A stretch of 64,000 nt of DNA from Cellulomonas hominis. Its GTDB lineage: Bacteria > Actinomycetota > Actinomycetes > Actinomycetales > Cellulomonadaceae. A program made the position numbers and the translations under genes. Location: contig NZ_JACHDN010000001.1 in NCBI RefSeq assembly GCF_014201095.1, positions 372,001 through 436,000 on the forward strand, written 5' to 3'. Below, piece after piece: positions 5,543-38,060 of this stretch (position 1 is the first letter of the stretch; the number at the start of each line of letters is the position of its first letter). Below the pieces are notes generated by a model. That model did no database searches and was not told the origin of the DNA. It was given only the letters and a program-made list of their open reading frames with translations.

Positions 5543-5594
5543 GAGGGTGTCTCGTTCCTGGGGGTGCGTGCGGGGGCGGACGGACGGTGCCGGC

Positions 5595-20598: not shown

Positions 20599-21627
20599 GT
20601 GGGCCGGGTGCGCATCGCCGACGTCGCGCAGCGCGCCGGCGTCTCGAAGGGCGCCGCCTCGTTCGCGCTGAACGGCCGGCCCGGGGTGTCCGCCGAGACC
20701 CGCGAGCGCGTGCTGCGCATCGCCGCGGACATGGGCTGGCGCCCGAACACCGCCGCCCGCGCCCTGGCCGGCGGGCGCTCCGACACGATCGGCCTCGTGC
20801 TCAACCGCCCGCCGCACGTGCGCGGCGTGGAGCCCCTGCTCCAGCACTACCTCGAGGGCATGCAGGACGAGCTCGTCGACCACGCGATCACCCTGAGCAT
20901 GCAGGTGGTCTCCGGGCACGCCGCCGAGCTCGCGACGTACGAGCAGTGGTCGTCCGCGAACGGCGTGGACGGGCTCGTGGTCATCGACCTGCGGGTGGAC
21001 GACGACCGCCCCGCGGCGCTCCAGGAGCTCGGGCTGCCCGCCGTCACGCTCGGGGACCCGCGGTACGCCGCCGGGCTGCCGACGGTGTGGACGGACGACG
21101 CAGCCGCCGCCCGCGAGCTCGTCGCCGCCCTGGTCGCGCTGGGGCACCGCCGCCTGGCCCGCGTCACCTCCGGGTCGCGGCTCGCGTACTCCCGGGTGCG
21201 CACCGACGCGCTCGCGGCCGCCGCCGCCGCCGCGGGCCTCGCGGAGCCGGAGGTGCTGCAGGCCGAGGGCCGGTCCGTCGCGGCCCCCGAGGCGACCCGG
21301 CGCCTGCTGGACCGGCCGGCGGTGGACCGCCCGACCGCGGTCGTCTACGAGAACGACCTGCAGGCGATGGCCGGCACCGGCGTCGCCGCCGAGCTCGGCC
21401 TGGACGTGCCCGGCGACGTGTCGGTGGTCGCGTGGGACTCCTCGGGGATCAGCCGGCTCACGCGGCCGACGCTGTCGGTGATGCGCCGCGACGCGCGGGC
21501 CGAGGCCGCCGGCGCGGTGCGGATGCTGCTCGAGCGGGTCGGGGGCGCCGCGGTCGAGGCGGTCCAGGCCCCGACCGCCCGGCTCGAGGTGCGCGGCAGC
21601 ACGGGCCCCGCCCCCGCCGGCGGCTGA
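20599..21627 (+). CDS. LacI-family transcriptional regulator
   Basis: 342 aa. LacI helix-turn-helix at residues 5-30 (IADVAQRAGVSKGAASFALNGRPG) with the hinge near residue 50, then a periplasmic-binding-like effector domain (VIDLRVDD, VVYENDLQAM, VVAWDSSG). The GTG start follows GGAGGACGAGGA. Usually such proteins sense a sugar and repress its catabolic genes. The ABC importer at 0-3 kb has no adjacent regulator, but nothing in the sequence links the two. It stands alone between ptsI and the convergent fixX. Confidence 0.9.
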   Translation: MGRVRIADVAQRAGVSKGAASFALNGRPGVSAETRERVLRIAADMGWRPNTAARALAGGRSDTIGLVLNRPPHVRGVEPLLQHYLEGMQDELVDHAITLSMQVVSGHAAELATYEQWSSANGVDGLVVIDLRVDDDRPAALQELGLPAVTLGDPRYAAGLPTVWTDDAAAARELVAALVALGHRRLARVTSGSRLAYSRVRTDALAAAAAAAGLAEPEVLQAEGRSVAAPEATRRLLDRPAVDRPTAVVYENDLQAMAGTGVAAELGLDVPGDVSVVAWDSSGISRLTRPTLSVMRRDARAEAAGAVRMLLERVGGAAVEAVQAPTARLEVRGSTGPAPAGG

Positions 21628-21647
21628 CCGGCGGGGACGGGCACGCG

Positions 21648-21941
21648 TCACCCCTCGCGGAAGCTCACCCCGAAGCCGCCGCGCGGGTAGTGCCAGGTCA
21701 GGGCCCCGGGCGGGGCGACCGCGCGGCAGGTGCCGCACTCGAGGCAGGCCGCGTACTCCACGTCCAGCCCGCCGTCCTCCCGCGCCGAGTACACCCGCGC
21801 GGGGCACACCGCGACGAGCACGGGGCCGCAGCCGGTGGCCCGGACCACGTCCTGGTCCACCTCGATGTGCGACTCCTCCTCGTCGAGCTCGAACCGGTTG
21901 TGCGCGAGGCGCTCGGCGGTCGAGGGCGTCGGCGCGATCAC
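21648..21941 (-). CDS. fixX: FixX-like ferredoxin
   Basis: 97 aa, last gene of the 13-gene operon. Cys residues at 38, 46, 66, 69 and 72; CPARVY and YAACLECGTCR followed by the FixX C-terminal signature WHYPRGGFGVSFREG. FixX supplies an Fe-S centre to FixC in the ETF-quinone oxidoreductase-like complex that supports anaerobic carnitine reduction in E. coli and nitrogen fixation in rhizobia. GTG start in a GTGA overlap with fixC. Converges with the LacI gene 20 bp away. Confidence 0.92.
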   Translation of the reverse strand: MIAPTPSTAERLAHNRFELDEEESHIEVDQDVVRATGCGPVLVAVCPARVYSAREDGGLDVEYAACLECGTCRAVAPPGALTWHYPRGGFGVSFREG

Positions 21942-23248
21942 AGGGCCCGCACCCCTGCCAGGGCGTCGGACGCGAGGTCGCGCAGCCGCACCGGGGACCG
22001 GCGCAGCGCGTCGCGCGCCACCCGGGCGAGGTGCCGCCGCGGGGTCCCGTCCAGCCGGAACACGTCGAGCATGATCTCCTCCAGGAGCCGTCCGTAGTCG
22101 CCGTACATGCGGGGCCGCTCCAGGAACGCCGGCGCCTTGGCGTAGGTGCGCAGGTCCTGCCCGACGGTGCCGGCGAGCAGCCGCTCGCGGTACCCGGCGA
22201 GCCCCGCGGCGGAGACGTCGCCGGCCGCGAGCGCCGCCTCGACGCCCTCGGCCGCGGCGATCGCCGACCCGATCGCCAGGTCCATGCCCCGCACGGTGAG
22301 CCCCGAGTTGATGGTGAGGCCCGCGGCGTCGCCCACGACGACCATGCCGTCGGTCGCGACCTCGCCGAGCATGTCCCAGCCGCCCTCGGCGACCAGGTGC
22401 GAGCCGTACTCCACGATCTCCGCGCCCCGCACGTAGCGCGCCAGGCGCGGGTGCGCGAGGAAGCGCTCGAACACGTCGGCCGCCGCCAGGCCCTTCGCCA
22501 CGAGGTCGTCGAGCCGCAGCACGACGCCCACGGACAGCGAGGTGCGGTTCGTGTAGACGATGCCGCCGCCCCCGACGCCCTGGGTGCAGTCGCCGACGTA
22601 CGCGATCGCGGCGCCCTCGTCGCCGGACACCCCGAAGCGGTCCTCGATCACGGCCTCCGGCAGGGACAGCACGGCCTTGACGCCGACCGCGAGGTGGTGG
22701 GTCGGCGGGGTCGGGCGCAGGCCGGCCTCGCGCGCCAGGAACGAGTTCACCCCGTCCGCCGCGACGACGACGCGGGCGCGCAGCTCGTCCTCCCCCGCCT
22801 GCACCCCGACCACGCGCCGGCCCGCGCCGGGCCCGTCGTCCTCGGTGAGCACCCGGTCCACGCGGACGCCGGGCATGAGGTACGCGCCGGCCTCCTCGGC
22901 CTGGGCCGCGAGCCACGGGTCGAACCGCGCCCGCAGCACCGTGACGGCGTTCACCGGGTCGGCGAGGCGGTCGGACGCGACGTCCAGCCCGACCGCCGAG
23001 TCCGGCGTGAGGAACACGACCTCGTTGCGGGTGACGCGCCGCTCGTAGGGGGCGTGGTCGAGGTAGTCCGGGACCACCTGCTCCAGCACGCGCGAGTACA
23101 GCACGCCGCCGGACAGGTTCTTGGACCCGGGCGCCTCGCCGCGCTCGATCACCGCCACGGAGCGGCCCTGCCGGGCGAGCAGCGTCGCGGCGACGCTCCC
23201 GGCCGGGCCGGCCCCGACGACGACGACGTCGAAGTCCGGCTCGGTCAC
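21938..23248 (-). CDS. fixC: FixC-like flavoprotein (ETF-quinone oxidoreductase family)
   Basis: 436 aa FAD protein. The dinucleotide motif VVVGAGPAGSVAATLLARQG is at about 9-28, and GDAAGLTINSGLTVRGMDLAIGSA near residue 315 is the FixC/ETF-QO flavin signature. No Fe-S ligands of its own, consistent with FixX providing them. GTG start overlaps the fixB stop by GTGA and its stop overlaps fixX. Function: moves electrons between the FixAB flavoprotein and quinone or another carrier, possibly by bifurcation as shown for FixABCX of diazotrophs. Direction here is unknown. Confidence 0.92.
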   Translation of the reverse strand: MTEPDFDVVVVGAGPAGSVAATLLARQGRSVAVIERGEAPGSKNLSGGVLYSRVLEQVVPDYLDHAPYERRVTRNEVVFLTPDSAVGLDVASDRLADPVNAVTVLRARFDPWLAAQAEEAGAYLMPGVRVDRVLTEDDGPGAGRRVVGVQAGEDELRARVVVAADGVNSFLAREAGLRPTPPTHHLAVGVKAVLSLPEAVIEDRFGVSGDEGAAIAYVGDCTQGVGGGGIVYTNRTSLSVGVVLRLDDLVAKGLAAADVFERFLAHPRLARYVRGAEIVEYGSHLVAEGGWDMLGEVATDGMVVVGDAAGLTINSGLTVRGMDLAIGSAIAAAEGVEAALAAGDVSAAGLAGYRERLLAGTVGQDLRTYAKAPAFLERPRMYGDYGRLLEEIMLDVFRLDGTPRRHLARVARDALRRSPVRLRDLASDALAGVRAL

Positions 23249-24144
23249 CGCAGCGCCTCCGTGAGGGCCGGGACCACCTGGTACAGGTCGCCGACGACGG
23301 CGTAGTCGGCCTCGCGGAAGATCGGCGCCTCCGGGTCGGAGTTCACCGCGACGACCGTCCGCGACCCGCGCGCCCCGACCATGTGCTGCACCTGGCCGGA
23401 GACGCCGAGCGCGAGGTACAGGTCCGGGCTGACGGTCCGCCCCGAGACGCCGACGTAGCGGTCCTTGGGGAAGAACCCGACGCCCTCGGCGAGCGGCCGG
23501 GTGCACGCGGTGGCGGCGCCCAGCGCGTCGGCGAGCGCGTCGACCAGCGCGAGGTCCTCGCGGGCCTTGAGGCCGCGGCCGACGGTGACGACCCGGCGGG
23601 CGGCGCGCAGGTCCGGGTCGGTGGCGGCGGCGGGCCGGGACTCGACCACGCGGACGGCCGTGGGTGCGGCCGGCGCCTCCTCGACCGGCGCGGGGGCACC
23701 GGGGACGGGCGCGTCGCCGCCGTCGGTCACGACGACGACGGGGCCCGACGCCAGCAGCTCCTCCTCCGCGACGCCGCCGAGCACCGCGCGGGTGAGGCGC
23801 ACCCCCGCGGGGTCGGGGGCGACGGCGACGACGCCGGCCAGGGCGGGGGCGTCGAGGCGCGCGGCGGCCGCACCGGCGAGCACGCGGTCGGCCGGGCGGG
23901 CGGCGGCGAGCACGACGGTGGCGCCCGCGGCGGCGACGGCCTCGGCCGCGGCGCCGGCGAACGCGGCCGCGGGGGCGTCGCCGGGCTCGCCGAGCCAGAC
24001 GACGCGGTCCGGCCCGCCGGCGGCGACGGCGTCGGCGACCGCGCGCGGCCCGGCGACGACGGCGACGACCGGGCCGCCGAGGGCGCGGGCGATCTCGAGC
24101 AGGCGCCCCACGGCGGGGTCGGTGGTGACGAGGCAGGTGGTCAT
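23245..24144 (-). CDS. fixB: FixB-like electron transfer flavoprotein alpha subunit
   Basis: 299 aa. Variable N-terminal domain (1-170, Ala-rich), then the FAD domain with VTVGRGLKAREDLALVDALADALGA and the signature YVGVSGRTVSPDLYLALGVSGQVQHMVG, ending AVNSDPEAPIFREADYAVVGDL. Start ATG preceded by GGAGAG. Lies 26 bp from fixA. With FixA it forms the soluble ETF heterodimer that would exchange electrons with the CaiA-like dehydrogenase of the same operon. Confidence 0.94.
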   Translation of the reverse strand: MTTCLVTTDPAVGRLLEIARALGGPVVAVVAGPRAVADAVAAGGPDRVVWLGEPGDAPAAAFAGAAAEAVAAAGATVVLAAARPADRVLAGAAAARLDAPALAGVVAVAPDPAGVRLTRAVLGGVAEEELLASGPVVVVTDGGDAPVPGAPAPVEEAPAAPTAVRVVESRPAAATDPDLRAARRVVTVGRGLKAREDLALVDALADALGAATACTRPLAEGVGFFPKDRYVGVSGRTVSPDLYLALGVSGQVQHMVGARGSRTVVAVNSDPEAPIFREADYAVVGDLYQVVPALTEALR

Positions 24145-24170
24145 GAGGGGTCTCTCCGGTGGGTCGGTTC

Positions 24171-24935
24171 TCAGAGCACGCCGTCGACGCGCAGGGCGGC
24201 GACGAGCTCGGCCGCGGCGGCCTGCGGGTCGGTGGCGTCGATGCGGACGCGGCGGCGGTCGGCGAGCGCGGGCCGGGACCGGCCCACGACCGCCAGGCCG
24301 TCCGGCAGTGCCTCGGGCGCGGGGAGCTCGTCGACGGGCTTCTTGCCGGCGCCGAGGATGTCCTTCATGCCGGGCACCCGCGGGAGCACGGCGTCCGTGC
24401 TCGCGGCGAGGACGGCCGGGCCGGTGACCTCGAGCACCCGCGAGCCGGAGCCGGCGGTCTGCTCCACGCGCAGCGTCCCGCCGTCGGCCGCCACGGCGGT
24501 CACCTCGGTCAGCAGCGGCCACCCGAGGTACCCCGCGAGGACGGCGGGCACGAGGTGCGCGCCCTCGTCCACGGACGAGTCGCCCGTGAGCACCACGTCG
24601 ACGTCGCCCTCCGCGCGGACCGCCGCCGCGAGCGCCCGCGCGGTCGCCGTGGCGCGCGCGCCGGCCAGGGCCGGGTCCGCGACGACGACGAGCCGGTCGA
24701 GCCCGCGGGACAGCGCGGCCTTGCGGGCCATCGGCGAGCCGGCGTCCGGCCCGCCCGCGGTGACGCCGACGAGCTCGGCGCCCGTCGCGTCCGCCAGCGC
24801 GCGGCCGAGCTCGATCGCCACCGGGTCGTACTCGCTGACCGACGACTTCGCGCGGGACAGGTCGACGGACCCGTCCGCCGCGACCACGGCCTCCTCGGGG
24901 TTCGGGGCCCACTTGTGGGCGACGGCGATCTTCAC
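24171..24935 (-). CDS. fixA: FixA-like electron transfer flavoprotein beta subunit
   Basis: 254 aa. N-terminus KIAVAHKWAPNPEE and the ETF-beta fold with GDSSVDEGAHLVPAVLAGYLGWPLLTEV; the nucleotide-binding part includes ALSRGLDRLVVVAD. GTG start preceded by AAGGAG and in a GTGA overlap with the MFS gene. It begins the fixABCX block at the 3' part of the operon. The aerobic etfBA pair is not in this window, so I cannot tell whether this ETF is additional. Confidence 0.94.
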   Translation of the reverse strand: MKIAVAHKWAPNPEEAVVAADGSVDLSRAKSSVSEYDPVAIELGRALADATGAELVGVTAGGPDAGSPMARKAALSRGLDRLVVVADPALAGARATATARALAAAVRAEGDVDVVLTGDSSVDEGAHLVPAVLAGYLGWPLLTEVTAVAADGGTLRVEQTAGSGSRVLEVTGPAVLAASTDAVLPRVPGMKDILGAGKKPVDELPAPEALPDGLAVVGRSRPALADRRRVRIDATDPQAAAAELVAALRVDGVL

Positions 24936-26260
24936 GGACGAGCTCCTTCGAGGACGGGGGCGGGGGTCACGGGGGCCGGGCGGGTGCGCACGGCGACGAC
25001 GGCCAGGGCGGCCATGAGCACGAAGGCCAGCGCGCTCGCCAGCCAGGCGCCGGTGAAGCTGCCGGTCACGTCGTGGATCCGGGCGTAGGCGACGGGCGCG
25101 GCGGCCGAGAACAGGCCGAGCGCGACGGTCACGAACGAGTAGAGGCGGGCGTAGTCCGCGGCGCCGAACAGGTGCCGGACCATGAGCGGCGGGACGACGA
25201 CGAGGCCCGCGTAGCCGCCGCCGAACACGAGGCAGCCGAGCAGGAACGGCGCGACCGCCCCGCCGCCGGCGACCACGATCAGCGGCCCGGCCACGCCGAG
25301 CACCGCGCACACCAGCGTGGTGAGCAGCACGCCGCGCCGGTCGTGCAGCCAGCCGAGGGCGAGCTTGCCGGCGATGCCGCCGATCATGATCGCCGAGACG
25401 CCGGTGGCACCGGTCGCGGAGCTCAGGCCGACCGCAGCCGCGTGGCTGGGGGCCTGCTGCAGGATGCACGCGCCGAACGCCAGCAGCCCGCCGAGCAGCA
25501 CCGCGCACGCGAACGGGACGGAGCGCACCGCGGCCGCGACGGACCGGCGGACGGCGGGCGACGGGAGCGACGGGAGCGACGGGGGCGACGAGGGCACGGA
25601 CCCGGGCGCCGGGGCAGCCGGCCCCGGGTCCGTGACCACGTCGTCCGCCCCGTACGGGCGCAGGCCGAGCTGCTCCGGCCGCAGCCGGATCAGCAGCAGC
25701 GTCGCCGGCACGGCCAGCAGCCAGCCGACCCCGCCCATGATCGCCCGGGTCTCGCGCCAGCCGATCGCGTCGATCAGCGCGCCGCCGACCGGGTTGGCGA
25801 CGGCCGCGACGGCGCTCGCGAACGCCGCCGCGATGCCGAGCGCCAGCCCGTTGCGGGTGCGGAACCAGTTGGTCAGCACCAGCGGGATCGGGATGTACAG
25901 CAGCACGCCGTAGGCGAGGCCGAGCAGCACGCCGGCGACGTACCAGTGCGTGAGCGACGTGAACAGCGCGCTCGCCGCGTAGGTGCCGCACGCCAGCGTC
26001 ATGGCGCCCCCGAGCAGCCACGGCAGCGACCGCCGCGGCAGCAGCCAGCCCGCGACGGGCAGCGTCGCGGTCATCACCAGCGACACCACCGTGAGGTACC
26101 CGTTGAGCGAGGCCAGGGACCAGCCCATGTCCTCGCTCACGGGGCTCAGGTAGATGCCGGCGGAGTTGCCGATGACGCCGACCGCGCCGCCGTACAGCAG
26201 GCAGCAGGCGACCAGGACCCACCAGGCGCGGTGCACGGGCGGGCGAGCGGGAGCGGACAT
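24932..26260 (-). CDS. MFS transporter, OFA (oxalate:formate antiporter)-like, copy 1
   Basis: 442 aa, about 12 membrane helices in two halves. The central cytoplasmic loop (about residues 205-240) has a low-complexity stretch of Pro, Ser and Leu encoded by short tandem repeats at 25560-25590. Resembles the other MFS protein of this operon in its first helix (GNSAGIYLSPVSEDMGWS versus GNTSGIFVTPVMDEFGWS), so the two are paralogues. OFA members exchange small carboxylates. One copy may import substrate and the other export the reduced product (inference). Stop overlaps fixA. Confidence 0.86.
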   Translation of the reverse strand: MSAPARPPVHRAWWVLVACCLLYGGAVGVIGNSAGIYLSPVSEDMGWSLASLNGYLTVVSLVMTATLPVAGWLLPRRSLPWLLGGAMTLACGTYAASALFTSLTHWYVAGVLLGLAYGVLLYIPIPLVLTNWFRTRNGLALGIAAAFASAVAAVANPVGGALIDAIGWRETRAIMGGVGWLLAVPATLLLIRLRPEQLGLRPYGADDVVTDPGPAAPAPGSVPSSPPSLPSLPSPAVRRSVAAAVRSVPFACAVLLGGLLAFGACILQQAPSHAAAVGLSSATGATGVSAIMIGGIAGKLALGWLHDRRGVLLTTLVCAVLGVAGPLIVVAGGGAVAPFLLGCLVFGGGYAGLVVVPPLMVRHLFGAADYARLYSFVTVALGLFSAAAPVAYARIHDVTGSFTGAWLASALAFVLMAALAVVAVRTRPAPVTPAPVLEGARP

Positions 26261-26283
26261 GTCTCACACCTTCGGGAGAGGGG

Positions 26284-27144
26284 TCAGCGAGCGGACGGGG
26301 TGGACGGGACGGCGGGCGCGGACGCGGCGGCGCCGGCGAACGCCTGCACGACGCCGGCGTAGCGCCGCGCCTCGTCGCCGGTGACCTCGAGGGCGGTGTC
26401 CTGCCAGCGGCGGCGCCGGGTGGCGACCAGGGCCCAGTCGAGCGCGGGCCCGCGGACCACGTCCGCCGCGTCCGGCTCGCCCTTCGTCCAGGGCGCACCG
26501 GACGGCAGGGTCAGGTCCAGGAGCACCGGAGTCGCGGGCAGCTCGAGGCCGTTGATCCGGTACGCGTTCGGCCGGGCCTGCCAGGACAGGAACAGGGTGC
26601 TGGCGATCCGGTCGGAGGCGATCGGCGGCAGGCCCAGCGCGTCGGTGAGGTCGACCGAGTGCGCCCAGAGCTCCATGTGCCGGGCGGAGGCGAGCGACCG
26701 CGCGGACATCGGCAGGCCCGGCGCCCACGGCACGCGGGCCTTCGGGTCGGCGTCGAGCAGGGCCGTGACCAGGCGGGAGCGCAGCTCGCGCCACCGGTCC
26801 AGCACCTCCGCGCCGGGCAGGTGCCGGAACCGGGTGACCCGGTGCGCCTCGTCGTGCCCGAAGTTCGCGTCCGCGAGCACCGTGACGTCCGCGGACGTGT
26901 CGCCCGCCGCCGCGGCCCCCAGCAGGCGGGTGGCCGCCCAGTCGAAGGCCGCGAGGTGCAGCAGCTCCTCCTTGAAGGTCCACGCGCACGTGGCGGCCGG
27001 CGACTCCCACTGCTCCTCGGTCAGCGGGTCGAGCAGCACGTCCACGGCCGCCTGCTCGGCGACCAGGTCGTCGACGATGCCCGACATCGGCCGGGGGTCC
27101 ATCTCGGGCGCGAGGTCCGCCGCGCCCGCCGCGTCGGCGCTCAC
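26284..27144 (-). CDS. TIGR03084-like DinB/mycothiol-isomerase-fold protein
   Basis: 286 aa. Four-helix DinB/MDMPI fold: helix one begins VDDLVAEQAAVDVLLDPLTEEQW; possible metal His residues are in KEELLHLAAFD, NFGHDEAHR and SARHMELWAHSVD. C-terminal half holds a small beta domain (LLDLTLPSGAPWTKGEPDAADVVRG). The GTG at 27144 overlaps the CaiA-like stop by GTGA; an ATG at 27102 is an alternative. The related maleylpyruvate isomerase uses mycothiol. TIGR03084 proteins are uncharacterised; a thiol- or CoA-linked job in this operon is speculation. Confidence 0.78.
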   Translation of the reverse strand: MSADAAGAADLAPEMDPRPMSGIVDDLVAEQAAVDVLLDPLTEEQWESPAATCAWTFKEELLHLAAFDWAATRLLGAAAAGDTSADVTVLADANFGHDEAHRVTRFRHLPGAEVLDRWRELRSRLVTALLDADPKARVPWAPGLPMSARSLASARHMELWAHSVDLTDALGLPPIASDRIASTLFLSWQARPNAYRINGLELPATPVLLDLTLPSGAPWTKGEPDAADVVRGPALDWALVATRRRRWQDTALEVTGDEARRYAGVVQAFAGAAASAPAVPSTPSAR

Positions 27145-28295
27145 TGGGCGTACTGCTTCAGGAGCTGGCGGCCGGCGATGTGGATCATGACCTCGTCGGT
27201 GCCGCCGCCGATGCGCTGCACGCGGGCGTCGACCCAGAGCCGGGACACCCGGCAGTCCGTGGTGTAGCCGATGCCGCCGAAGATCTGCATCGCGTCGTCG
27301 ATGACCTCGTTGGCGGCCTGGGCGCAGTACAGCTTGGCCAGGGCGGAGTCGATCTGCACCGGCTCGCCGTTGTCGATCTTCCACGCCGTCCTCGCGACGA
27401 GGTTGCGCATGTTCTCGATCTTCAGCGCCATCGACGTGATCTTCTGCTGGATCAGCTGGAAGGCACCGATGGGCCTGCCGAACTGCACGCGCTGGTTGGC
27501 GTACCGGGCGGCGTCGCCGAACGCGCACTCCGCCATGCCGAGCAGCTGGGCCGCCATGAGCAGGCGCTCGACCTCGAAGTTGATCATCGCCTGCATGAAG
27601 CCGTTGCCCTCGACGCCGACGAGGTCCTTCTCCTCGAGCTCGACGTCCTCCAGGTAGACCTCGCAGGTGTCCATCATGTGCCAGCCGATCTTCTGCAGCG
27701 GCTCCACGGTGACGCCCGCGGCGTCCATCGGCAGCCACCACATCGACAGGGCGTTCGTCTTCGACTCGTCGCCGGTCGCGTCCGCGTTCCGGGCCAGGCA
27801 GAGCATGTAGCGGCTGCGCTGCGCGTTGCTCATGAACGTCTTGTGGCCGTTGAGGTAGACCTTGCCGTCGCGGCGCGTGAACGTCGTGGCGATGGCGGAG
27901 GAGTCCGACCCGGCCTGCGGCTCGGTGAACCCGAGGACGAAGCCGACGCGGCCGGCGGAGACCTCCGCCATGCACTGCTGCTTCTGCTCGTCGTTGCCGA
28001 ACTCGAGCATGTCCGCGATGGACAGCGCCTGGCCGAAGACGAAGTGGGGCCCGCCGTTCTTGGTGATCTCCTCGGCGACGAGCATGAGCGTCTGGGTGTC
28101 GACGGGCGTGCCGCCGTACTCCTCCGGCACGCCGAGCATGGTGAACCCGGACTCGGCGAGCGCCTCGACCAGCTCCGTCGGGTAGCGGTGCTGCTCGTTG
28201 CACTCCTTCATGTACGACTCGGGGCACGCCCGGTCCATGACCTCGCGGAGGCTGTCCAGCAGCAGCTGCTGCTCGTCGGTGATGCGGAAGTCCAT
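27141..28295 (-). CDS. CaiA-like acyl-CoA dehydrogenase / enoyl-CoA reductase
   Basis: 384 aa flavoprotein of the acyl-CoA dehydrogenase family. N-terminal helical domain (1-120), FAD/substrate strands around GFTEPQAGSDSSAIATTFTRRDGKVYLNGHKTFMS shared with CaiA, and C-terminal helices with ECAFGDAARYANQRVQFGRPIGAFQLIQQKI. Near the C-terminus IGGGTDEVM has Gly where typical dehydrogenases carry the catalytic Glu, as in CaiA. CaiA reduces crotonobetainyl-CoA with electrons from FixABCX, so this enzyme probably works as an enoyl-CoA reductase paired with the fix genes downstream. Substrate unknown. Overlaps the next gene by GTGA. Confidence 0.88.
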   Translation of the reverse strand: MDFRITDEQQLLLDSLREVMDRACPESYMKECNEQHRYPTELVEALAESGFTMLGVPEEYGGTPVDTQTLMLVAEEITKNGGPHFVFGQALSIADMLEFGNDEQKQQCMAEVSAGRVGFVLGFTEPQAGSDSSAIATTFTRRDGKVYLNGHKTFMSNAQRSRYMLCLARNADATGDESKTNALSMWWLPMDAAGVTVEPLQKIGWHMMDTCEVYLEDVELEEKDLVGVEGNGFMQAMINFEVERLLMAAQLLGMAECAFGDAARYANQRVQFGRPIGAFQLIQQKITSMALKIENMRNLVARTAWKIDNGEPVQIDSALAKLYCAQAANEVIDDAMQIFGGIGYTTDCRVSRLWVDARVQRIGGGTDEVMIHIAGRQLLKQYAQ

Positions 28296-28307
28296 GCGTC
28301 GTGCCCT

Positions 28308-30986: not shown

Positions 30987-31738
30987 TTCGTGAACCGCTT
31001 CATCGTCTCGCGGAAGCCCTCGGTGCGGGTGCACAGCGGCGACGCGGTGGTCTCCGCCTGCAGCACCGCCTCCAGGCCGGTGTCCGCGGCGGCGTTCATG
31101 ATGCCCTTGGTGATCTGCACCGACTGCGGCGGCATGCCCGCCACGCGGCGGGCGAGCTCGAGGGTCCCGGCCAGCAGCTCGCCGGCCGGCAGCACCCGGT
31201 TCGCCAGGCGCAGGTCGCGCAGGTCGGCGCCCGAGAGCTCGCGGTCGGCGAGCAGGATCTCCTTGGCGGTCTTCTCCCCCACCAGGTCGGGCAGGAACTT
31301 CATCAGCCCCATCTCGGGCACGATGCCGATCCGGCAGAACGCCGGGACGACCCGCACCCGGTCCGACACGCACACCAGGTCGCACGCCAGCAGCAGGCTG
31401 AACGCGCCTCCGACCACGAAGCCGTCCGCCATCGCGACGACCGGCGTGCCGATCTGCCGGATCGTGCGGATCGCGGCCTCGTAGCGCTGGAGCTGGGCCC
31501 GGGCGGCCTCGACGGTCTGCTCGCCCGGGCCGGACTGGGTGAGGTCGCCGCCGGACGAGAAGTGCTCGCCCTCGCCGCGCAGCACCACGACCCGGACGTC
31601 CGGGTCGGCGTCCGCCGCGCGGAGCAGGTCCGCCAGCAGGTCCATCATCGGGGCGCTGATGGCGTTCCGCTTGCGCGGCTGGTTGAGCACCAGCGCGCGG
31701 ACGCCGTCGCCGAGGTCCTCGGCGTAGACCGCGGTCAC
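30983..31738 (-). CDS. Enoyl-CoA hydratase/isomerase family protein (crotonase)
   Basis: 251 aa. Crotonase fold with oxyanion-hole segments GEGEHFSSGGDLTQ and DGFVVGGAFSLLLACDLVCVSD. At the second catalytic position IGIVPEMGLMKFLPDLVG carries a Glu. The C-terminal helix includes a typical tail. In carnitine metabolism the crotonase CaiD interconverts carnitinyl-CoA and crotonobetainyl-CoA; here it may add or remove water on the pathway intermediate. GTG start overlaps the Fe-S flavoenzyme stop by GTGA, and its own stop overlaps the ligase start. Confidence 0.88.
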   Translation of the reverse strand: MTAVYAEDLGDGVRALVLNQPRKRNAISAPMMDLLADLLRAADADPDVRVVVLRGEGEHFSSGGDLTQSGPGEQTVEAARAQLQRYEAAIRTIRQIGTPVVAMADGFVVGGAFSLLLACDLVCVSDRVRVVPAFCRIGIVPEMGLMKFLPDLVGEKTAKEILLADRELSGADLRDLRLANRVLPAGELLAGTLELARRVAGMPPQSVQITKGIMNAAADTGLEAVLQAETTASPLCTRTEGFRETMKRFTK

Positions 31739-33825
31739 AGGGCCACCCCCGCCCGGTAGCCGGCCTTGGTGGCGTCGGCGATCCGGCCCGGCTCGGCGCA
31801 GTCGCCGACCGCGTGCACCTCGACGCCGAGCGCCTCGATCTCGCGCGCCAGGCCCGGGTTCGGCACGAAGCCGAGCGTCACGGCGACGGTCTTCGCGGTC
31901 ACGCGCACCGGCGCCTGCGAGCCGTCGGGCGCGGTCTGCACGCCGCGCACGCCGTCGGGGGTGATCTCCGTGACCCGGGTCGACGGGTACGTGGTGACGT
32001 TCGGGGCCTTCTTGAAGTCCGAGGTGACGTGGAACCGGTCGGAGCCGCCCACGTCGTAGCCGATCTTCCTGCCCTCCTCGAGGATCGACGTCCGGCGCCC
32101 CGAGTGCATGGCGAGCTCGCCGAGCTCGCAGCCCGGCAGGCCGCCGCCGATGATCGCCACGGAGCGGCGCAGCGGCCACGGGCTGACCGACGTCGCCCAG
32201 CGCGCGAAGCCCGGCGTGTAGTACAGCTTGAGGAACCGCGCCGCGGCGGCCCACAGCACCGTGTTGACCAGCCCCGGCTTGCGGGGCGGGGTGCCGTTGA
32301 GCATCTGCAGGAAGTCGTGCGAGGTGACGACGTTCGCGCCGTCTACGCCCGGGACGTCGATGCCCCGGGGCTCGCCGCCGATCGCGACCACCACGGCGTC
32401 GGGCCGCTCCCGGCGCACCAGGTCCGCCGTCACCGGGGTGTTGAGCACCACCCGGATCTCCGGGGTCTTGCGCAGCCTCGTCCGGTAGTACGTGAGCAGG
32501 CGCTCGTGCAGCGGGCTGAAGATCGCGCTCATCTTCGTGCAGCCGCCCGTGCGGGGGCCGGCCTCGTAGATCGTCACGTCGTGGCCGCGCTCGTGGGCGG
32601 CGAACGCGGCGGACAGGCCGGCCGGGCCGGAGCCGGCGACCATGACCGACTTGCGGCGCGGCGCCTTCCCGATGGTCAGCGTGTCCAGCTCCGGGCCCAG
32701 GCGCGCGTTCAGGCCGCACTTCTCCAGCGGCAGGCCGCGGCCCACGACGTCGTCGATGCACCGGTTGCAGCACAGGCACATCGCGATGTCCTCCGGCCGG
32801 TCCTCCATCACCTTGCGGGCGAAGTCGGGGTCCGCGATCGAGTAGCGCAGGCCGCCGATCAGGTCCGCCTTGCCCTCGCGCAGGATCTTCTCCATGACCA
32901 CCGGGTCGGTCTCGCGGTAGGCCGTGACGACCGGCTTGGTGGCGACCGTCTTGATCCGCTCGGAGATCCAGGACCAGTGGCCGTCCGGCACCCTCTTCGT
33001 GGTGAGCGGGACGCTGCTCTCGTGCCAGCCGACCGCGAGGTCGTGCAGGTCCAGGCCGGCCTCCTCCAGGTACGGCACGACCCGCAGCGCGTCCTCGATG
33101 GTGTGCCCCTCGCCCGCGGGGCTGGACACGTACTCGACCGGCGACCAGCGGACCAGGATCGGGAAGTCCGGGCCGACCTCCGCGCGGATCTCCCGGATCA
33201 CCTCGACCGTGAGGCGCACCCGGTTCTCCAGGGAGCCGCCGTACTGGTCGGTCCGGTCGTTCGTCGCCGGGGACAGGAACCGGCTGAGGATGCCGCCGAC
33301 CCCCGCCATCACCTCGACGGCGTCCCAGCCCGCGGCCTTGACCACCCGCGCGCAGCTCACGAACTGCTGCTTGAAGATCGCGATGTGCTCGAGGGTCATC
33401 GCCCGGAACGGGCCCATCATCGGCAGGATCGAGATGTCGGACGGCCCCCAGGCGTGCTCGTCCTCGTCGGTCCGGGACTTCCAGTCGTGCACGAAGTACG
33501 GCTGCGCGGCCAGCAGGCCGCCGTGCTGGTGCACCGCGTCCGCCATCTGCCGCAGGTGCGGCACGCAGGAGTCGTCCCACGCGCCGGGCAGCCGGTGGTT
33601 CCCCGGGTGCTCGGCGGTGCGCTCGTACGGGCAGACCGTCTGCAGGATCAGGCCGGTCTGCCCCGCGGAGCGCACCGCGAGGTAGTTGAGGAACCGCTGC
33701 GTCGGCCGGGACCCGGCGTCCACGTACCCCGCGCCCGGCGACATCGAGGTCGTCATGAGCTTGTTCCGGAGGGTGAGGCCGCCCACCCGGATCGGGGAGG
33801 ACAGCAGCGGGAACTGGGTACCCAT
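31735..33825 (-). CDS. BaiCD / 2-enoate reductase-like Fe-S flavoenzyme
   Basis: 696 aa, full length for the NADH:flavin oxidoreductase family of 2,4-dienoyl-CoA reductase, 2-enoate reductase and BaiCD/BaiH. Residues 1-340 form the old-yellow-enzyme barrel with SRFLSPATNDRTDQYGGSLENR (181-202). Cys350, 352, 353, 356 and 370 provide a [4Fe-4S] site. Residues 390-696 bind FAD and NAD(P)H (VAGSGPAGLSAAFAAHERGHDV; IIGGGLPGCELGELAMHSGR). Start ATG follows AGGAG. Expected role: NAD(P)H-dependent reduction of a conjugated C=C in the substrate or its CoA ester. Oxygen sensitivity is expected from the cluster. Confidence 0.9.
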   Translation of the reverse strand: MGTQFPLLSSPIRVGGLTLRNKLMTTSMSPGAGYVDAGSRPTQRFLNYLAVRSAGQTGLILQTVCPYERTAEHPGNHRLPGAWDDSCVPHLRQMADAVHQHGGLLAAQPYFVHDWKSRTDEDEHAWGPSDISILPMMGPFRAMTLEHIAIFKQQFVSCARVVKAAGWDAVEVMAGVGGILSRFLSPATNDRTDQYGGSLENRVRLTVEVIREIRAEVGPDFPILVRWSPVEYVSSPAGEGHTIEDALRVVPYLEEAGLDLHDLAVGWHESSVPLTTKRVPDGHWSWISERIKTVATKPVVTAYRETDPVVMEKILREGKADLIGGLRYSIADPDFARKVMEDRPEDIAMCLCCNRCIDDVVGRGLPLEKCGLNARLGPELDTLTIGKAPRRKSVMVAGSGPAGLSAAFAAHERGHDVTIYEAGPRTGGCTKMSAIFSPLHERLLTYYRTRLRKTPEIRVVLNTPVTADLVRRERPDAVVVAIGGEPRGIDVPGVDGANVVTSHDFLQMLNGTPPRKPGLVNTVLWAAAARFLKLYYTPGFARWATSVSPWPLRRSVAIIGGGLPGCELGELAMHSGRRTSILEEGRKIGYDVGGSDRFHVTSDFKKAPNVTTYPSTRVTEITPDGVRGVQTAPDGSQAPVRVTAKTVAVTLGFVPNPGLAREIEALGVEVHAVGDCAEPGRIADATKAGYRAGVAL

Positions 33826-33920
33826 GGGGAAGGCTCCTGGGGTGGCGAGAGGGGTGGGGCGGGAGGCGGGGCGCCCGACCCGGCCGACGGGGGTGGGCGG
33901 CCGGGTCGGGACGGGTGGGG

Positions 33921-35225
33921 TCAGCCCCGGCCGGCCCAGCCGCGGCGGGCGGTCCGGACGATGACCGGGACGAACACGGCCACCGCGAGGTACAGGCCGA
34001 TCACGAGCACGAAGGCCGGGGTGAAGGACCCGCTCATGTCGTAGATCCGCGCGTACGTCAGGGCCGCGAGGCCGGAGAAGACGAAGATGCCGGTGGAGAC
34101 CCACGAGTAGATCTCCGCGTAGTTCGCGGTGCCGAAGCCCTCGCGGGCGACCATCGGCGAGATGACCGTCAGGGCCGAGTAGCCGATGCCGAACACGCCC
34201 ATGCCGACGTAGAACAGGGCGACCGACGACCCGGCGAACAGGGCCATCGCGAGGCCCGCCGCGCCGCACACGCCCGCGGCGACGCCCGTGACCTTGCTGC
34301 CCAGGGCGTCGCTCAGCCAGCCGAGCAGGAACTTCCCGACCGTGCCGCCGACCATGACGATCGACACCGCGACCGCGCCGGCCTCGGCACCGAGCTTCCC
34401 GGTGGCCGCGAACGACGGGATCTGCTGGAAGAACGACGCGCAGAACACGAGGAACCCTGCCGTGAGGATCAGCAGGTAGAACGCGGGGATGCGCCGGGCC
34501 TGGGCGAGCGTCGCGCCCTCCTCGGCCGGCTTGGTGCCGGGCGTCGCGGCGGCCCCGGTGGCCCCGGCGGCCTCGCCCTCGTCCGCGCCGAACGGCAGCA
34601 CGTTCATCGACGCCGGGTCCTTGCGGACGAGCAGCGCGCTGAACAGCACCGAGACGACGGTGATGACGATGCCGAACACCAGGCGGGTGTGCTGCCAGCC
34701 CTGCGACTCGATCATCGACTGGCCGACGGGGCTCGCCACCGCGGCGAGGATGCTCAGCGCCGCGCCGGCGATGCCGATCGCCAGGCCGGTCTGCTTGCGG
34801 AACCACGCGTTCACCAGCGTCGGGACCGCGAGGAACATGAAGAACGAGCACGAGACGCCGTAGATGACGCCGTACAGGTGCCACTGCCACGGGTGCGTCG
34901 CGTACGCGGTCCAGATGGTGCTCAGGCCGTACGCGGCCGCGGTGATCGTGAGGATCCACCGCGGGTTGAACCGCGCCATGAGCTTGCCGGCGAACGGCGT
35001 GCACAGGGCCGCGACCCACGGCTGGATGGTCATGTACAGCGTGGCCTCGGTGCGGCTCCAGCCGAACTCGTCCATGACCGGGGTCACGAAGATGCCGGAG
35101 GTGTTGCCGACGATGCCGACCGGCACGGCGTAGAAGCCGATGCAGGCGATCAGGATGACCCAGGCGTAGGTCGAGCGCGTCGGGGCGGCGCTCCGCCGGG
35201 CCGGTGAGACGGCCGTCGTGTTCAC
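33921..35225 (-). CDS. MFS transporter, OFA-like, copy 2
   Basis: 434 aa, 12 predicted helices. First helix YAWVILIACIGFYAVPVGIVGNTSGIFVTPVMDEFGWS; central loop about 195-225 is rich in Ala, Gly, Thr and Glu. GTG start with GAGGAG just upstream. BaiG, the bile-acid importer, is also an MFS protein, and OFA members carry oxalate and formate, so a carboxylate substrate is likely. Paralogue of the MFS gene at 24932-26260 in the same operon. 38 bp separate it from the upstream CoA transferase. Confidence 0.87.
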   Translation of the reverse strand: MNTTAVSPARRSAAPTRSTYAWVILIACIGFYAVPVGIVGNTSGIFVTPVMDEFGWSRTEATLYMTIQPWVAALCTPFAGKLMARFNPRWILTITAAAYGLSTIWTAYATHPWQWHLYGVIYGVSCSFFMFLAVPTLVNAWFRKQTGLAIGIAGAALSILAAVASPVGQSMIESQGWQHTRLVFGIVITVVSVLFSALLVRKDPASMNVLPFGADEGEAAGATGAAATPGTKPAEEGATLAQARRIPAFYLLILTAGFLVFCASFFQQIPSFAATGKLGAEAGAVAVSIVMVGGTVGKFLLGWLSDALGSKVTGVAAGVCGAAGLAMALFAGSSVALFYVGMGVFGIGYSALTVISPMVAREGFGTANYAEIYSWVSTGIFVFSGLAALTYARIYDMSGSFTPAFVLVIGLYLAVAVFVPVIVRTARRGWAGRG

Positions 35226-35263
35226 AGGGGGCTCCTCGGGGAGGGTGGGGTGCCGGGGCGGGG

Positions 35264-36481
35264 TCAGGCGGCCGGGCCGCCGACGACGCCGTCGGCGCGC
35301 AGCGCGGTGATCTCGTCCGCGGTGAAGCCGTGCTCGGCGAGCACGGTGTCGGTGTCGAAGTCGCGGGGCGCGCCGCCGCGCACCGTCTTCGAGGGGTTGT
35401 TGCGGAACCGCGGCACGGGGGCGGCGCCGGTGACGTCCTCGCCGGTCGCCAGGTCCTCCCAGGTCTCGAAGACGCCGCGCTGCTGGTAGTGCGGGTGCTC
35501 GCGCATCATCTGGTAGGTCATGACCGGGCTCACCGCGACGCCCAGGGCACCGAGCTCGGCGTCCACCTCGGCCACGGTCCGCTCCGCGCAGAACGCCTCG
35601 AGCTTCTCGACGAACTTGCGCGCCCGCTCCGGCTTGTCGCGGCTGATCGACTGGATGACGCCGTCGAAGTCGGGATCGCCGTCCAGGCCGAACAGCGTGA
35701 CCATGTTCCGGATCGCCGTGGCGCCGCCGACCGCGACGAACACCCAGCCGTCCGCGCAGCGCTCGGTGCCGTTGCACGCGCCGTAGCTGTCGAGGTTGCC
35801 CATGCGGGGCGCCTGCAGGCCCTTGTTCAGACCGTCGGTCAGGTACGACGCCTGCAGGCGGACCAGCGACTCGAACTGCGCGAGGTCGATGCTCTCCCCC
35901 TGGCCCGTCTGCCGGGAGCGCAGCACCGCCGCGAGCGCCGACCACGCGCCGAACAGGCCCGTGACGAAGTCGCCGGTGTACGGCTTGGTGACGTACGGCG
36001 GCAGCGGGTCCGGGAACCCGTTGATCGCCAGGTAGCCGCTGAACGCCTGCCCGATGGAGTCGAACGAGGCCCGGCGCAGGTAGGCCGGGTCCCCGGTGAG
36101 GCCGAACCCGGAGATGTGCACGACGACGAGCCGCGGGTTGACCTCCCACAGCACCTCGTCCGTGAGCCCCCAGGACGCCCAGGTGCCGCCCTTGGACGAC
36201 TCGACCAGCATGTCCGCGTCCGCGATCAGGCGGAACAGCACCTGCCGGCCCTGCTCGGAGGGGATGTCCAGGCTCATCGAACGCTGGTTGCGGCGCTCGG
36301 TCGACCAGGACTGCGGCCAGAGGCGGTACATGTCGGGGACCCGGGTGTTCTCCACCTGGATGACGTCGGCGCCCTGCTCGGCGAACAGCCCGCACATGAA
36401 CGGGCCGGCGACCACCGAGGAGGCGTTGACGACCTTGAGGTCCTGCAGGTTGCCGAACGGCTGTCCGTCAGCGTCCTTCAT
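35264..36481 (-). CDS. CaiB/BaiF-family (class III) CoA transferase, copy 1
   Basis: 405 aa, the same length as E. coli CaiB. N-terminal Rossmann-like part (LKVVNASSVVAGPFMCGLFAEQGADVIQVEN), conserved NPRLVVVHISGFGLTGD, and catalytic Asp171 in PYTGDFVTG, which forms the aspartyl-CoA anhydride in this family. C-terminal ISGFG-like and RWR-type region is FRNNPSKTVRGGAPRDFDTDTVLAEHGF. Start ATG has AGGAG upstream. It would move CoA from a product acyl-CoA to a fresh acid so that no ATP is spent per cycle. Second gene of the operon. Confidence 0.92.
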   Translation of the reverse strand: MKDADGQPFGNLQDLKVVNASSVVAGPFMCGLFAEQGADVIQVENTRVPDMYRLWPQSWSTERRNQRSMSLDIPSEQGRQVLFRLIADADMLVESSKGGTWASWGLTDEVLWEVNPRLVVVHISGFGLTGDPAYLRRASFDSIGQAFSGYLAINGFPDPLPPYVTKPYTGDFVTGLFGAWSALAAVLRSRQTGQGESIDLAQFESLVRLQASYLTDGLNKGLQAPRMGNLDSYGACNGTERCADGWVFVAVGGATAIRNMVTLFGLDGDPDFDGVIQSISRDKPERARKFVEKLEAFCAERTVAEVDAELGALGVAVSPVMTYQMMREHPHYQQRGVFETWEDLATGEDVTGAAPVPRFRNNPSKTVRGGAPRDFDTDTVLAEHGFTADEITALRADGVVGGPAA

Positions 36482-36525
36482 GGGGGGCTCCTGGGGGTGA
36501 GGGGGCTGGGTGCGGGGGCTCGGGG

Positions 36526-37761
36526 TCAGGCGGTGGTCTCGGCGTACGGCAGGCGGGACAGACCGCCCGCGGCGTACAGCGCGTCGCGGGTGGCGTCCGG
36601 GACGCCGAGCTCGGCGAGCAGGTCGTCGTTGTCCTGGCCGACCGTCGGCGCGCCGCGCCAGATCCGCCCGGGCCGGTTCGCGACCTCGGGGACGACCTTG
36701 ACGCCGGGCACGGTGGTCACGCCGTCGGCGGCGGTCCACTCGGTGAACACGCCGCGGGCCCGGTAGTGCGGGTGCTCGCGGGCGGCCGCGTAGTCGAGCA
36801 GCCGGGAGACCGGGACGCCGGCGGCGGCCAGCTCGTCCTCGACCTGCGCGGCGGTGCGGGCCTCGATGAACCCCGTGAACGCGCGCTCGAGCGCGCCGGC
36901 CGCGGGCGTCCCGACCGGGACGTAGCCGGCGCCCTGGGGGAACAGCGCGGACCCGGGCTCCAGGCCGAGCACCGGCAGCAGCCGCGCGAGCACGCCCGCG
37001 CCCAGCGCGAGGACGTAGACCTCCTCACCGTCGCCGCAGCGGTACGTCCCGTAGACGGCGCAGATGCGCGAGCGGTCGCCCTCCTTGACGTAGTCCAGGC
37101 CGTACCGCAGGTAGTCGGTGGGATAGTTCGCCTGAATGCGCAGCATCGCCTCGAACTGCGCGATGTCCAGGCTCTCACCCTTTCCGGTGCGCTCGCGGGA
37201 CAGCAGGGCCGCATTCGCCATACCGAACGCGAAGAATGCCGCCGTGTAATCCGCCGGGAAGGGCATGGCCGGGGTCGAGGGCTGCCCCGGCATGCCGTTC
37301 ATCCGCATCGCGCAGCCGAAGGCCTGGGCGATCGGGTCGTAGGAGGCGCGGCGCACCCAGGCCTCCTCGCCCGTCTGCCCGAACCCGGAGATGTGCGCGA
37401 CCACCAGCCGCGGGTTGCGCTCCCAGAGCACCGCGTCGGACAGGCCGATCCGCGCGAAGCGGCCGCCGACCGACGCCTCGATCAGGACGTCGGTGGTCTC
37501 GATCAGCCGCAGGAACACCTCGCGGCCCTCGCCGTGCACGTAGTCCAGGGCGAGCGAGCGCATGTTGCGCCGGTCCTGCTGCCAGGCGCCGGAGCGGCGG
37601 GCGACGCGGGAGGTGTCGACGGCGCGCGGGTTCTCCACCCAGATCACGTCGGCGCCGTGCTCGGCGTACAGCTCGGCGGCGAACGGGGCGGCGACGGACA
37701 GGCCCGTCATGACCACCCGGAAGCCCTCGAGCATGCCGAAGGCCGGCTTGTTCGTCGGCAC
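36526..37761 (-). CDS. CaiB/BaiF-family (class III) CoA transferase, copy 2
   Basis: 411 aa, first gene of the operon. Strongly CaiB-like through LYAEHGADVIWVENPRAVDT and NPRLVVAHISGFGQTGEE, with catalytic Asp171 in PFPADYTAA. GTG start after GGGAGGGG. Two different class III transferases in one operon suggest two acyl-CoA exchange steps, or a heterodimer. Transcription should begin about 115 bp upstream, where a weak -35, a -10 and three palindromes are found. C-terminal PETAxxA-like tail is not informative. Confidence 0.92.
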   Translation of the reverse strand: MPTNKPAFGMLEGFRVVMTGLSVAAPFAAELYAEHGADVIWVENPRAVDTSRVARRSGAWQQDRRNMRSLALDYVHGEGREVFLRLIETTDVLIEASVGGRFARIGLSDAVLWERNPRLVVAHISGFGQTGEEAWVRRASYDPIAQAFGCAMRMNGMPGQPSTPAMPFPADYTAAFFAFGMANAALLSRERTGKGESLDIAQFEAMLRIQANYPTDYLRYGLDYVKEGDRSRICAVYGTYRCGDGEEVYVLALGAGVLARLLPVLGLEPGSALFPQGAGYVPVGTPAAGALERAFTGFIEARTAAQVEDELAAAGVPVSRLLDYAAAREHPHYRARGVFTEWTAADGVTTVPGVKVVPEVANRPGRIWRGAPTVGQDNDDLLAELGVPDATRDALYAAGGLSRLPYAETTA

Positions 37762-37884
37762 CGCCCACCCCTCCCGTCTCGGCGCACGCCGGCGGGGCGC
37801 ATTCCCCGGGGAACGCGTCGGCGGCTGTGCAGGAAATGAGCACGCGCCCGGCCGTCTCAGCGTCGAGCGAGGCTCACGGGAATG

Positions 37885-37913
37885 ACAGTAGGGGATCTAC
37901 TAAACCGGGATAG
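37885..37913 (-). promoter_or_regulatory. Candidate promoter of the 13-gene operon
   Basis: Minus-strand -10 TACTGT (37885-37890) with a poor -35, CTATCC (37908-37913), at 17 bp, as expected for an activator-dependent promoter. A small dyad AGTAG-N5-CTACT (37887-37901) overlaps the -10. From 37762 to 37884 I see only an untranslated leader. Confidence 0.45.
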
Positions 37914-37914
37914 T

Positions 37915-38026
37915 GGGACCTCTGTCCCGACGTGGTCCGGGACCTCGGTCCCGGGTTTCCGGGCCGCGCGGGCGGGGAACCGCTTCCCCGGGGCGCGCAG
38001 GGGTCGGACCGGGACCTGGGTCCCGG
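37915..38026 (-). promoter_or_regulatory. Three DosR/DevR-like palindromes upstream of the operon
   Basis: GGGACCTCTGTCCC (37915-37928), GGGACCTCGGTCCC (37939-37952) and GGGACCTGGGTCCC (38011-38024); the last two extend to CCGGGACC...GGTCCCGG. All keep the GGGAC...GTCCC core of the mycobacterial DosR box. Centres are 24 and 72 bp apart, and the nearest is about 43 bp before the predicted RNA start. Only the minus-strand operon starts from this gap, because HPr ends here. The regulator is not in the window. Confidence 0.65.
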
Positions 38027-38060
38027 ATGGGGCGGGCGCCGACCGGTCCCCGGACGCGAC

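Follow-up and report, generated by a model that had tools for sequence, protein, structure and literature searches.

A predicted low-oxygen pathway for unsaturated carboxylic acids in an inserted gene block of Cellulomonas hominis

What is reduced by a gene set that unites CaiB-like coenzyme A (CoA) transferases, a FadH/BaiCD-like flavoreductase, a YdiO/CaiA-type acyl-CoA dehydrogenase and the electron carriers FixABCX? This question is raised by a 64,000-nucleotide stretch of the Cellulomonas hominis genome (NZ_JACHDN010000001.1, positions 372,001 to 436,000; the window), in which 13 genes (g1 to g13) follow each other on the minus strand from position 37761 to 21648. We put the probability at roughly 0.55 that this block encodes a mobile pathway, induced at low oxygen, in which an unsaturated and probably dienoic carboxylic acid is reduced and so serves as electron sink. 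An independent codon-model gene call returned the same 13 genes as a first-pass annotation of this DNA, with six overlaps of 4 bp and no gap wider than 95 bp (33826-33920). Pfam and NCBIfam searches bore out, in outline, the families that had been named, i.e. CoA-transferases, major facilitator superfamily (MFS) carriers, flavoenzyme, crotonase, ligase-hydrolase fusion, DinB-fold protein and FixABCX; both CoA-transferases, g4, g5, FixA, FixB, FixC and FixX score below their own curated NCBIfam cut-offs.

The gene set supports the proposal that an unsaturated carboxylate is imported, activated with CoA and reduced. Uptake of the acid would be achieved by one of the two MFS carriers, g3 (33921..35225; MFS_1 122 bits; best NCBIfam match SfMCT with 146 bits, below the cut-off of 320) and g9 (24932..26236; MFS_1 82 bits), and the other carrier may export the product. 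Formation of the CoA thioester would be primed by the AMP-forming acyl-CoA ligase part of g6 (28308..30986; 892 amino acids; AMP-binding 245 bits), which is fused to a hydrolase of metallo-beta-lactamase fold (Lactamase_B 69 bits); the latter, whose HxHxDH motif is kept in all 13 sequences compared, might hydrolyze stalled thioesters. The two class III CoA-transferases, g1 (36526..37761; 411 amino acids; PF02515 287 bits) and g2 (35264..36481; 405 amino acids; 292 bits), probably recycle CoA from product to substrate, as their family suggests. They are the only PF02515 matches in the whole genome (one contig of 4.49 Mb). Asp169 of E. coli CaiB, which we take to be the catalytic residue, aligns with D171 in g1 and also in g2, and is kept in at least 95% of the 31 rows of each alignment.

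The first reduction is assigned to g4 (31735..33825; 696 amino acids; Oxidored_FMN and Pyr_redox_2 domains), which would reduce one double bond in the way FadH acts on 2,4-dienoyl-CoA. It has the FMN and FAD domains of FadH and four aligned cysteines, one of them shifted by one residue, that would bind a [4Fe-4S] cluster; the E. coli FadH reference used is incomplete at its end. C350, C353, C356 and C370 as well as G178 and H268 are invariant in 14 sequences, and His252 of FadH is kept in g4. A Tyr/His dyad is named for the FadH 2,4-dienoyl-CoA reductase (PMC12691678, as far as its accessible part goes), of which g4 has only the His: Tyr166 is replaced by G178, a Gly in all aligned rows except that of locus L052 (Asn).

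A shift of the remaining double bond to the 2-position would be the task of g5 (30983..31738; 251 amino acids), a crotonase-fold protein. The dehydration step proposed in the first-pass annotation is not supported: at the positions of CaiD Glu111 and Glu131, presumably the catalytic residues, g5 has S114 and F134, and because both glutamates are lost (Ser or Ala, and Phe) in 32 of 33 crotonase sequences, the outlier being the distant L052 (Glu, His), g5 is read as isomerase and not as dehydratase. E142 is kept in 32 of the 33, again with L052 as exception. The PDB chains closest to g5 in sequence (6slb, 6sl9, 3hrx, 6sla and 2ej5) have Ser and Phe as g5 does, and Asp at the E142 position, except 6sla with Asn; we take 6slb, 6sl9, 3hrx and 6sla to be the PaaG isomerase and this Asp to be its catalytic acid. 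The PaaG-like pattern of a single acid (E142) and no hydratase Glu pair is present in g5, and these residues fit a predicted enoyl-CoA isomerase better than a dehydratase.

The resulting 2-enoyl-CoA would be reduced by g7 (27141..28295) with electrons from FixABCX, in exchange with the quinone pool. The earlier name of g7, a CaiA-like reductase, holds as far as the YdiO/CaiA type is concerned, but the protein misses the CaiA model (428 bits, cut-off 540) and passes the YdiO-type model PRK12341 (645 bits, cut-off 537), with 51% identity to YdiO and 43% to CaiA. At an E-value of 1e-90 or below, CaiA-model matches occur in only one of 394 sampled genomes of the class, the C. hominis genome itself, with two copies of which neither exceeds the cut-off, so that this is not the dehydrogenase of everyday actinobacterial beta-oxidation, as the block might otherwise have been explained. 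The genome has four PF00441 matches, and its electron transfer flavoprotein (ETF) domain matches form three pairs. FixABCX are all present in the block by family matches and E. coli identities, although each lies under its NCBIfam cut-off: g10 (FixA, ETF beta; 24171..24935; PF01012 111 bits; 35% identity to YdiQ, 39% to FixA), g11 (FixB, ETF alpha; 23245..24144; ETF_alpha 101 bits; 36% to both FixB and YdiR), g12 (FixC; 21938..23248; PRK10015 416 bits, cut-off 466; 44% to YdiS) and g13 (FixX, ferredoxin-like; 21648..21941; Fer4_ETF_QO 27 bits; 47% to FixX; C46, C66, C69 and C72 in 18 of 18 rows). UbiA-family genes lie near related clusters in L037, L039 and L040, following FixB in L037 and L040, and UbiE and polyprenyl synthase genes were found in L039 and L040 (representatives scanned). 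Where the available DNA includes them, FixAB or FixB are close to these genes, and a quinone partner made for the pathway is thereby hinted at. In g8 (26284..27144; TIGR03084 269 bits, cut-off 248), a DinB/MDMPI-fold protein, H63, E158 and H162, presumably the MDMPI metal ligands, are invariant in 16 of 16 sequences, no PDB relative was found by sequence at E-values up to 0.01, and the predicted metal-binding protein might be a thiol- or metal-assisted isomerase.

How does this block compare with the systems to which its genes point? It shares with E. coli caiTABCDE and fixABCX a CaiB-type transferase, a ligase, a crotonase, a CaiA-type dehydrogenase and FixABCX, but has no carrier of the betaine/choline/carnitine transporter (BCCT) family, has two transferases and a crotonase without the CaiD Glu pair, and adds the flavoreductase, the DinB protein, the hydrolase domain, a LacI regulator and DosR-like sites. 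A carnitine pathway, in which an MFS carrier replaces CaiT and carnitine is activated, dehydrated and reduced via crotonobetaine to gamma-butyrobetaine, would account for the Cai-type gene set with fixABCX and for the fact that CaiB is the best NCBIfam and E. coli match of both g1 and g2 and the best PDB match of g1. The absence of a BCCT carrier from the block, correctly noted before, does not exclude carnitine, because Propionibacterium freudenreichii, likewise an actinobacterium, pairs caiABC and fixABCX with an MFS carrier and an enoyl-CoA hydratase and has neither caiT nor caiD, according to the part of PMC11007987 at hand; the likeness is one of gene descriptions, and that part mentions no flavoreductase or DinB gene. 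We nevertheless regard carnitine as an unlikely substrate: g5 and its relatives lack both CaiD glutamates as described, g7 is under the CaiA cut-off and over that of YdiO, and the flavoreductase, the second CoA-transferase and the DinB protein would have no role. In addition, g1 and g2 (38% and 37% identical to E. coli CaiB) reach 348 and 358 bits against a cut-off of 413 for carnitine CoA-transferase. Judged by these cut-offs and residues, the block seems to work like cai/fix while failing the CaiA, CaiB and CaiD tests; we class it as a variant of the reductive cai/fix kind.

The bai operon has in common with the block a BaiCD-like flavoreductase, a ligase, a CaiB-family transferase and an MFS carrier. 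The block differs by its additional dehydrogenase and FixABCX and by the lack of a short-chain dehydrogenase/reductase (SDR) and of BaiE, neither of which is found among the 13 genes, in agreement with the first-pass annotation and its statement that the mixture matches neither cai nor bai. One could still imagine that a ring hydroxyl is reductively removed from a cyclic plant or steroid acid, either in a bai-like manner or from quinate or shikimate to a cyclohexane carboxylate; the substrate of g4 would then be a cyclic diene or enone. The resemblance of g4 to BaiCD agrees with this, as do SnoaL-type proteins that form a cluster close to the core in five of the related loci (L037 7736-8311, L039, L040, L041 and L051), since BaiE presumably has a SnoaL-type fold, and LacI regulators often bind sugar-like ligands. 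E. coli ydiO-ydiQRST, moreover, adjoins ydiB (quinate/shikimate dehydrogenase) and aroD. On the other hand, g4 scores 310 bits where the BaiCD cut-off is 825, no SDR or BaiE accompanies it, none of the four SnoaL proteins scanned matches a BaiE-named model, and YdiB, AroD, YdiF, YdiN and YdiM have no match at E-values up to 1e-4 in the available DNA of the 35 related loci described below. The literature searched by title or the start of the abstract held nothing on point for shikimate or quinate, and we keep this idea as a weak rival that appears quite improbable.

With respect to E. coli ydiO-ydiQRST-fadK the block shares its dehydrogenase type, FixC and a following ligase gene, but g1 and g2 have no YdiF match at E-values up to 1e-3, and the E. 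coli K-12 stretch shown (L094 3290-8802) contains no flavoreductase, crotonase or DinB gene. Its position beside ydiB and aroD may give a clue to the substrate of the Ydi system itself, and for YdiQR experimental evidence of function is described as lacking in the accessible part of PMC9329746. Another known system close to the block is the equol gene cluster of gut bacteria (PMC8898433): all 18 clusters contain fixA and fixB, 13 of the 18 also contain fixC and fixX, and a reductase gene and a homologue of devR accompany them. Those clusters encode isoflavone enzymes, however, and the word CoA does not occur in the main text of that report. FadH together with an enoyl-CoA isomerase comes close in flavoreductase domains, aligned cysteines, His252 and a possible isomerase partner, and departs in the Tyr166 exchange, the shifted Cys and the YdiO/CaiA type of the partner dehydrogenase. 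By the tests made, the block would thus work partly like FadH, without passing the Tyr test, and does not appear to be bai. No description of this gene set was found in the open-licence PMC literature searched.

A further possibility is that hydroxycinnamates or other arylacrylates are reduced, in which case g7 or g4 would act on the side chain and the other enzymes would be auxiliary. The combination of ligase, CoA-transferase, dehydrogenase and ETF is like that of caffeate respiration, and a carboxylesterase gene lies beside the L039 and L040 loci (L039 scanned). For a single 2-enoyl bond, however, one reductase would suffice and no isomerase would be required, and we consider arylacrylates improbable.

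That the genes belong together is suggested by their recurrence. A scan of a genome collection (one genome each of 84,980 species) with a flavoreductase alignment gave 35 loci, in Cellulomonas, Actinotalea, Propionibacteriaceae, Ancrocorticia, Gordonibacter, Eggerthella, Adlercreutzia, Slackia and Rubneribacter as well as in Hungatella, Oscillospiraceae, Gracilibacteraceae, Peptococcaceae, Syntrophomonas, Smithella and others; not all of these loci are independent (two of the rows are from Hungatella, for instance, and one Eggerthellaceae assembly contributes two loci). The gene set is not unique to C. hominis. The core order reductase-crotonase-ligase-dehydrogenase-DinB is complete in 23 of the 35 loci, in Actinomycetota and Bacillota; this is conserved synteny and more than chance. 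Of the 12 loci without complete core, five end at a contig end (L026, L031, L033 and L044 flagged by script, L027 judged by reading), L042 and L045 have four of the five core genes in order, and L043, L048, L049, L052 and L054 differ. In the available DNA a CaiB-type gene is present in 30 of the 35. At L035 18545-22030 and in related loci the core is adjoined by a sigma-54 gene, whose cluster occurs in 10 loci, and by a gene for a PrdR-like sigma-54 activator, whose cluster occurs in 15 loci including Gracilibacteraceae and Hungatella (for both, the L035 representative was scanned). In L048 3801-6775, between the second CaiB-type gene and the dehydrogenase gene, there are an open reading frame matching CitMHS (3801-5300) and a clustered one (5195-6775), and the L037 member of the latter cluster matches nothing in Pfam or NCBIfam.

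In the dehydrogenase tree the block rows are split from YdiO and CaiA (99/96), and a paralogue from a second cluster of the C. hominis genome falls among them beside L043, by a join flagged as long-branch. The Bacillota rows (by title) L039, L040, L041 and L047 group with the untitled L037 (97/91) inside a fork that otherwise consists of Eggerthellaceae (100/100), and this nesting fits a transfer between phyla. In the transferase tree, for which some loci gave the same protein to both sets, g1 falls in a clade of 15 rows and g2 in a separate, deep clade of 21 rows, each with Actinomycetota and Bacillota; 15 rows of Oscillospiraceae, Gracilibacteraceae, Rubneribacter and kin form the sister clade of the latter, and a further clade is made up of seven Eggerthellaceae rows, of which the majority had been assigned to g1.

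Mobility is also indicated by the insertion site. In the relative G426 (L091) ptsI runs directly into ptsH, with the equivalents of window positions 20464 and 38028 adjacent, so that the inserted block comprises 20465..38027, about 17.6 kb, with edges that are approximate to some tens of bases. Besides the 13 genes, it holds the promoter up to about 38027 and a LacI-family regulator gene (Pfam) on the plus strand (20599..21627), which is convergent with the 13 genes and is counted in the block since it is absent from the empty site of G426. No gene of the 13-gene set was found at the ptsI-ptsH site of the six relatives fetched (G419, G443, G489, G470, G426 and G479), and in five of them (L087, L088, L089, L090 and L092) no ptsI match adjoins the EIIC gene and ptsH, whereas L091 has one there. 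G476 carries this block too, likewise between ptsI and ptsH. In Actinotalea (G410) lacI, 59% identical, adjoins fixX, and the stretch examined around that locus has no ptsI or ptsH match. A foreign base composition was considered and ruled out (75.1% G+C in the block, 75.8% and 75.0% in the flanks), and the nearest named relatives of the proteins of this region are from Cellulomonas and Actinotalea. The g6 ligase fusion occurs in 5 of 221 Cellulomonadaceae genomes and the flavoreductase (E-values up to 1e-150) in 3 of 396 sampled genomes of the phylum, C. hominis included in both counts. The flavoreductase occurs in 15 of 138 Eggerthellaceae genomes and 7 of 48 genera; this count refers to the family of G927, which we identify as the Eggerthellaceae because the match coordinates in G860 and G971 agree with the loci of Eggerthella sinensis and Adlercreutzia equolifaciens.

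When would the block be expressed? Three boxes of the DosR/DevR-like pattern GGGAC-N4-GTCCC (37915..37928, 37939..37952 and 38011..38024) lie upstream of g1 and are the only ones in the window (shuffle mean 0.33; one of 100 shuffles reaches three). The genome has 45 such sites and three of the reversed pattern, with 26 versus 4 in G426 and 21 versus 5 in G410. In 40 fetched regions 36 of 41 sites are intergenic by our own gene model, where the non-coding share is 18% (12% in the window). Among 39 distinct, hand-chosen neighbour proteins from these 40 regions, 7 of which had no family at the thresholds used, are AdhE, a DMSO-reductase-family enzyme, aspartase, malate:quinone oxidoreductase, pyruvate formate-lyase (975 bits, cut-off 994, in a gene that runs off the fetched stretch), iron alcohol dehydrogenase, thiolase, flavodoxin, NrdR, NrdI, a MoaE-like protein below its cut-off and heme O synthase; some of the boxes are upstream of the adhE, pfl, dmsA and aspartase genes. 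Another box (L061 10480-10493) precedes the second dehydrogenase-fixABCX cluster of the genome, a short way upstream of its dehydrogenase gene. That cluster (L061 5835-10493; G000:C1, about 1348.8-1353.5 kb) has a FixC 73% and a dehydrogenase 53% identical to those of the block, a lactate-type MFS gene over its cut-off and a ligase match nearby. A DosR/DevR-like regulator would add low-oxygen induction, and the 45 sites make up a candidate DosR-like regulon. As such boxes also adjoin pfl, adhE, the DMSO reductase gene and the second fixABCX cluster, the anaerobic role that had been proposed for the block is likely.

A second, substrate-dependent control may come from LacI. Directly beside the first box there is a candidate operator ACTAAACCGGGATAGT (37899..37914, plus strand), which agrees with a palindrome in 14 of 16 positions. 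ACTAAACCG has a single copy in the window, at 37899 (shuffle mean 0.01), is absent from 177 kb of other stretches of the same genome, and recurs in the 13-gene-type promoters of G476 and Actinotalea and in the Actinotalea lacI promoter; ACTAAACCG or GCTAAACCG also precedes g9 in three relatives. These operator-like sites are near-palindromic with a central CG, as is expected of a LacI operator. Sites of this kind are missing from the lacI promoters of the window and of G476 and from the g9 gap of the window, where the best agreement is 7 or 8 of 16 positions. LacI would sense the substrate or a relative of it.

Several observations weigh against the proposed pathway. With FadH Tyr166 replaced and a Val in place of the Glu two residues earlier, the CoA-ester substrate and the regiochemistry of g4 are not established, and g4 scores under every listed NCBIfam cut-off. 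For g5, the depositors of the PDB chains with its residue pattern label them as enoyl-CoA hydratase, and its 112 bits compare with a PaaG cut-off of 345, all other listed cut-offs being missed as well. The gene set is also uneven in the available DNA: FixC is found in 18, FixX in 17 and FixA in 10 of the 35 loci, neither FixA nor FixB was seen at the Eggerthellaceae loci, the hydrolase domain occurs in only 12 of the 35, and L048 and L049 have no g5 and no ligase gene beside the reductase, so that the full set of 13 genes characterizes the actinomycete loci but not every locus; the second transferase of the seven Eggerthellaceae rows, moreover, is no g1 orthologue. The boxes agree with the DosR consensus TTSGGGACTWWAGTCCCSAA (PMC2275270, from the part consulted) in half-sites and spacing only, with a different centre and flanks, and OsdR of Streptomyces uses AGGGCCGATCGGCCCT, as given in the accessible portion of PMC5069765. 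Other site neighbours have no obvious link to oxygen, among them UvrA-like, luciferase-like, ROK, Maf, VKOR, MarR, DsbA and DUF4191 proteins, a rhamnose enzyme, a phosphotransferase system permease, a chemotaxis protein, ABC or solute-binding transporters, transaldolase, a DNA ligase, a disulfide-reductase-like flavoprotein and a regulator of the Lrp type. Many sites, however, have a gene on either side, and control may extend to only one of the two.

Finally, FixABCX could run in the oxidative direction, with g7 as electron donor and quinone as acceptor, and the genes would then help to degrade unsaturated fatty acids, for whose oxidation the FadH reductase and enoyl-CoA isomerase are auxiliary enzymes (PMC12691678 and PMC9329746, in the parts available). 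The 13 genes encode neither a thiolase nor a hydroxyacyl-CoA dehydrogenase, though, the CaiB-type transferases point to CoA recycling, the dehydrogenase is of the YdiO/CaiA type and the boxes are common to fermentation genes, and we give an oxidative function little probability. We return to the reduction of an unsaturated acid, of which a more detailed version can be put forward tentatively, as something possible that we would not yet expect: a conjugated dienoic acid would be fully saturated by a reductase-isomerase-reductase relay on CoA thioesters that is linked to quinone via FixABCX with conservation of energy, is induced by low oxygen and by the LacI-sensed substrate, and has spread horizontally. 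This would be an undescribed anaerobic respiration or electron disposal in Cellulomonas-like actinobacteria and in gut bacteria of two phyla.

If the reduction of an unsaturated acid is the function of this block, Eggerthellaceae and some Cellulomonadaceae would have a conserved electron-acceptor pathway in common. The combination of flavoreductase, isomerase and YdiO-type dehydrogenase would gain a role, which would also provide a lead on E. coli YdiQR. For the Cellulomonadaceae, the findings point to a candidate DosR-like low-oxygen regulon that takes in acquired genes.

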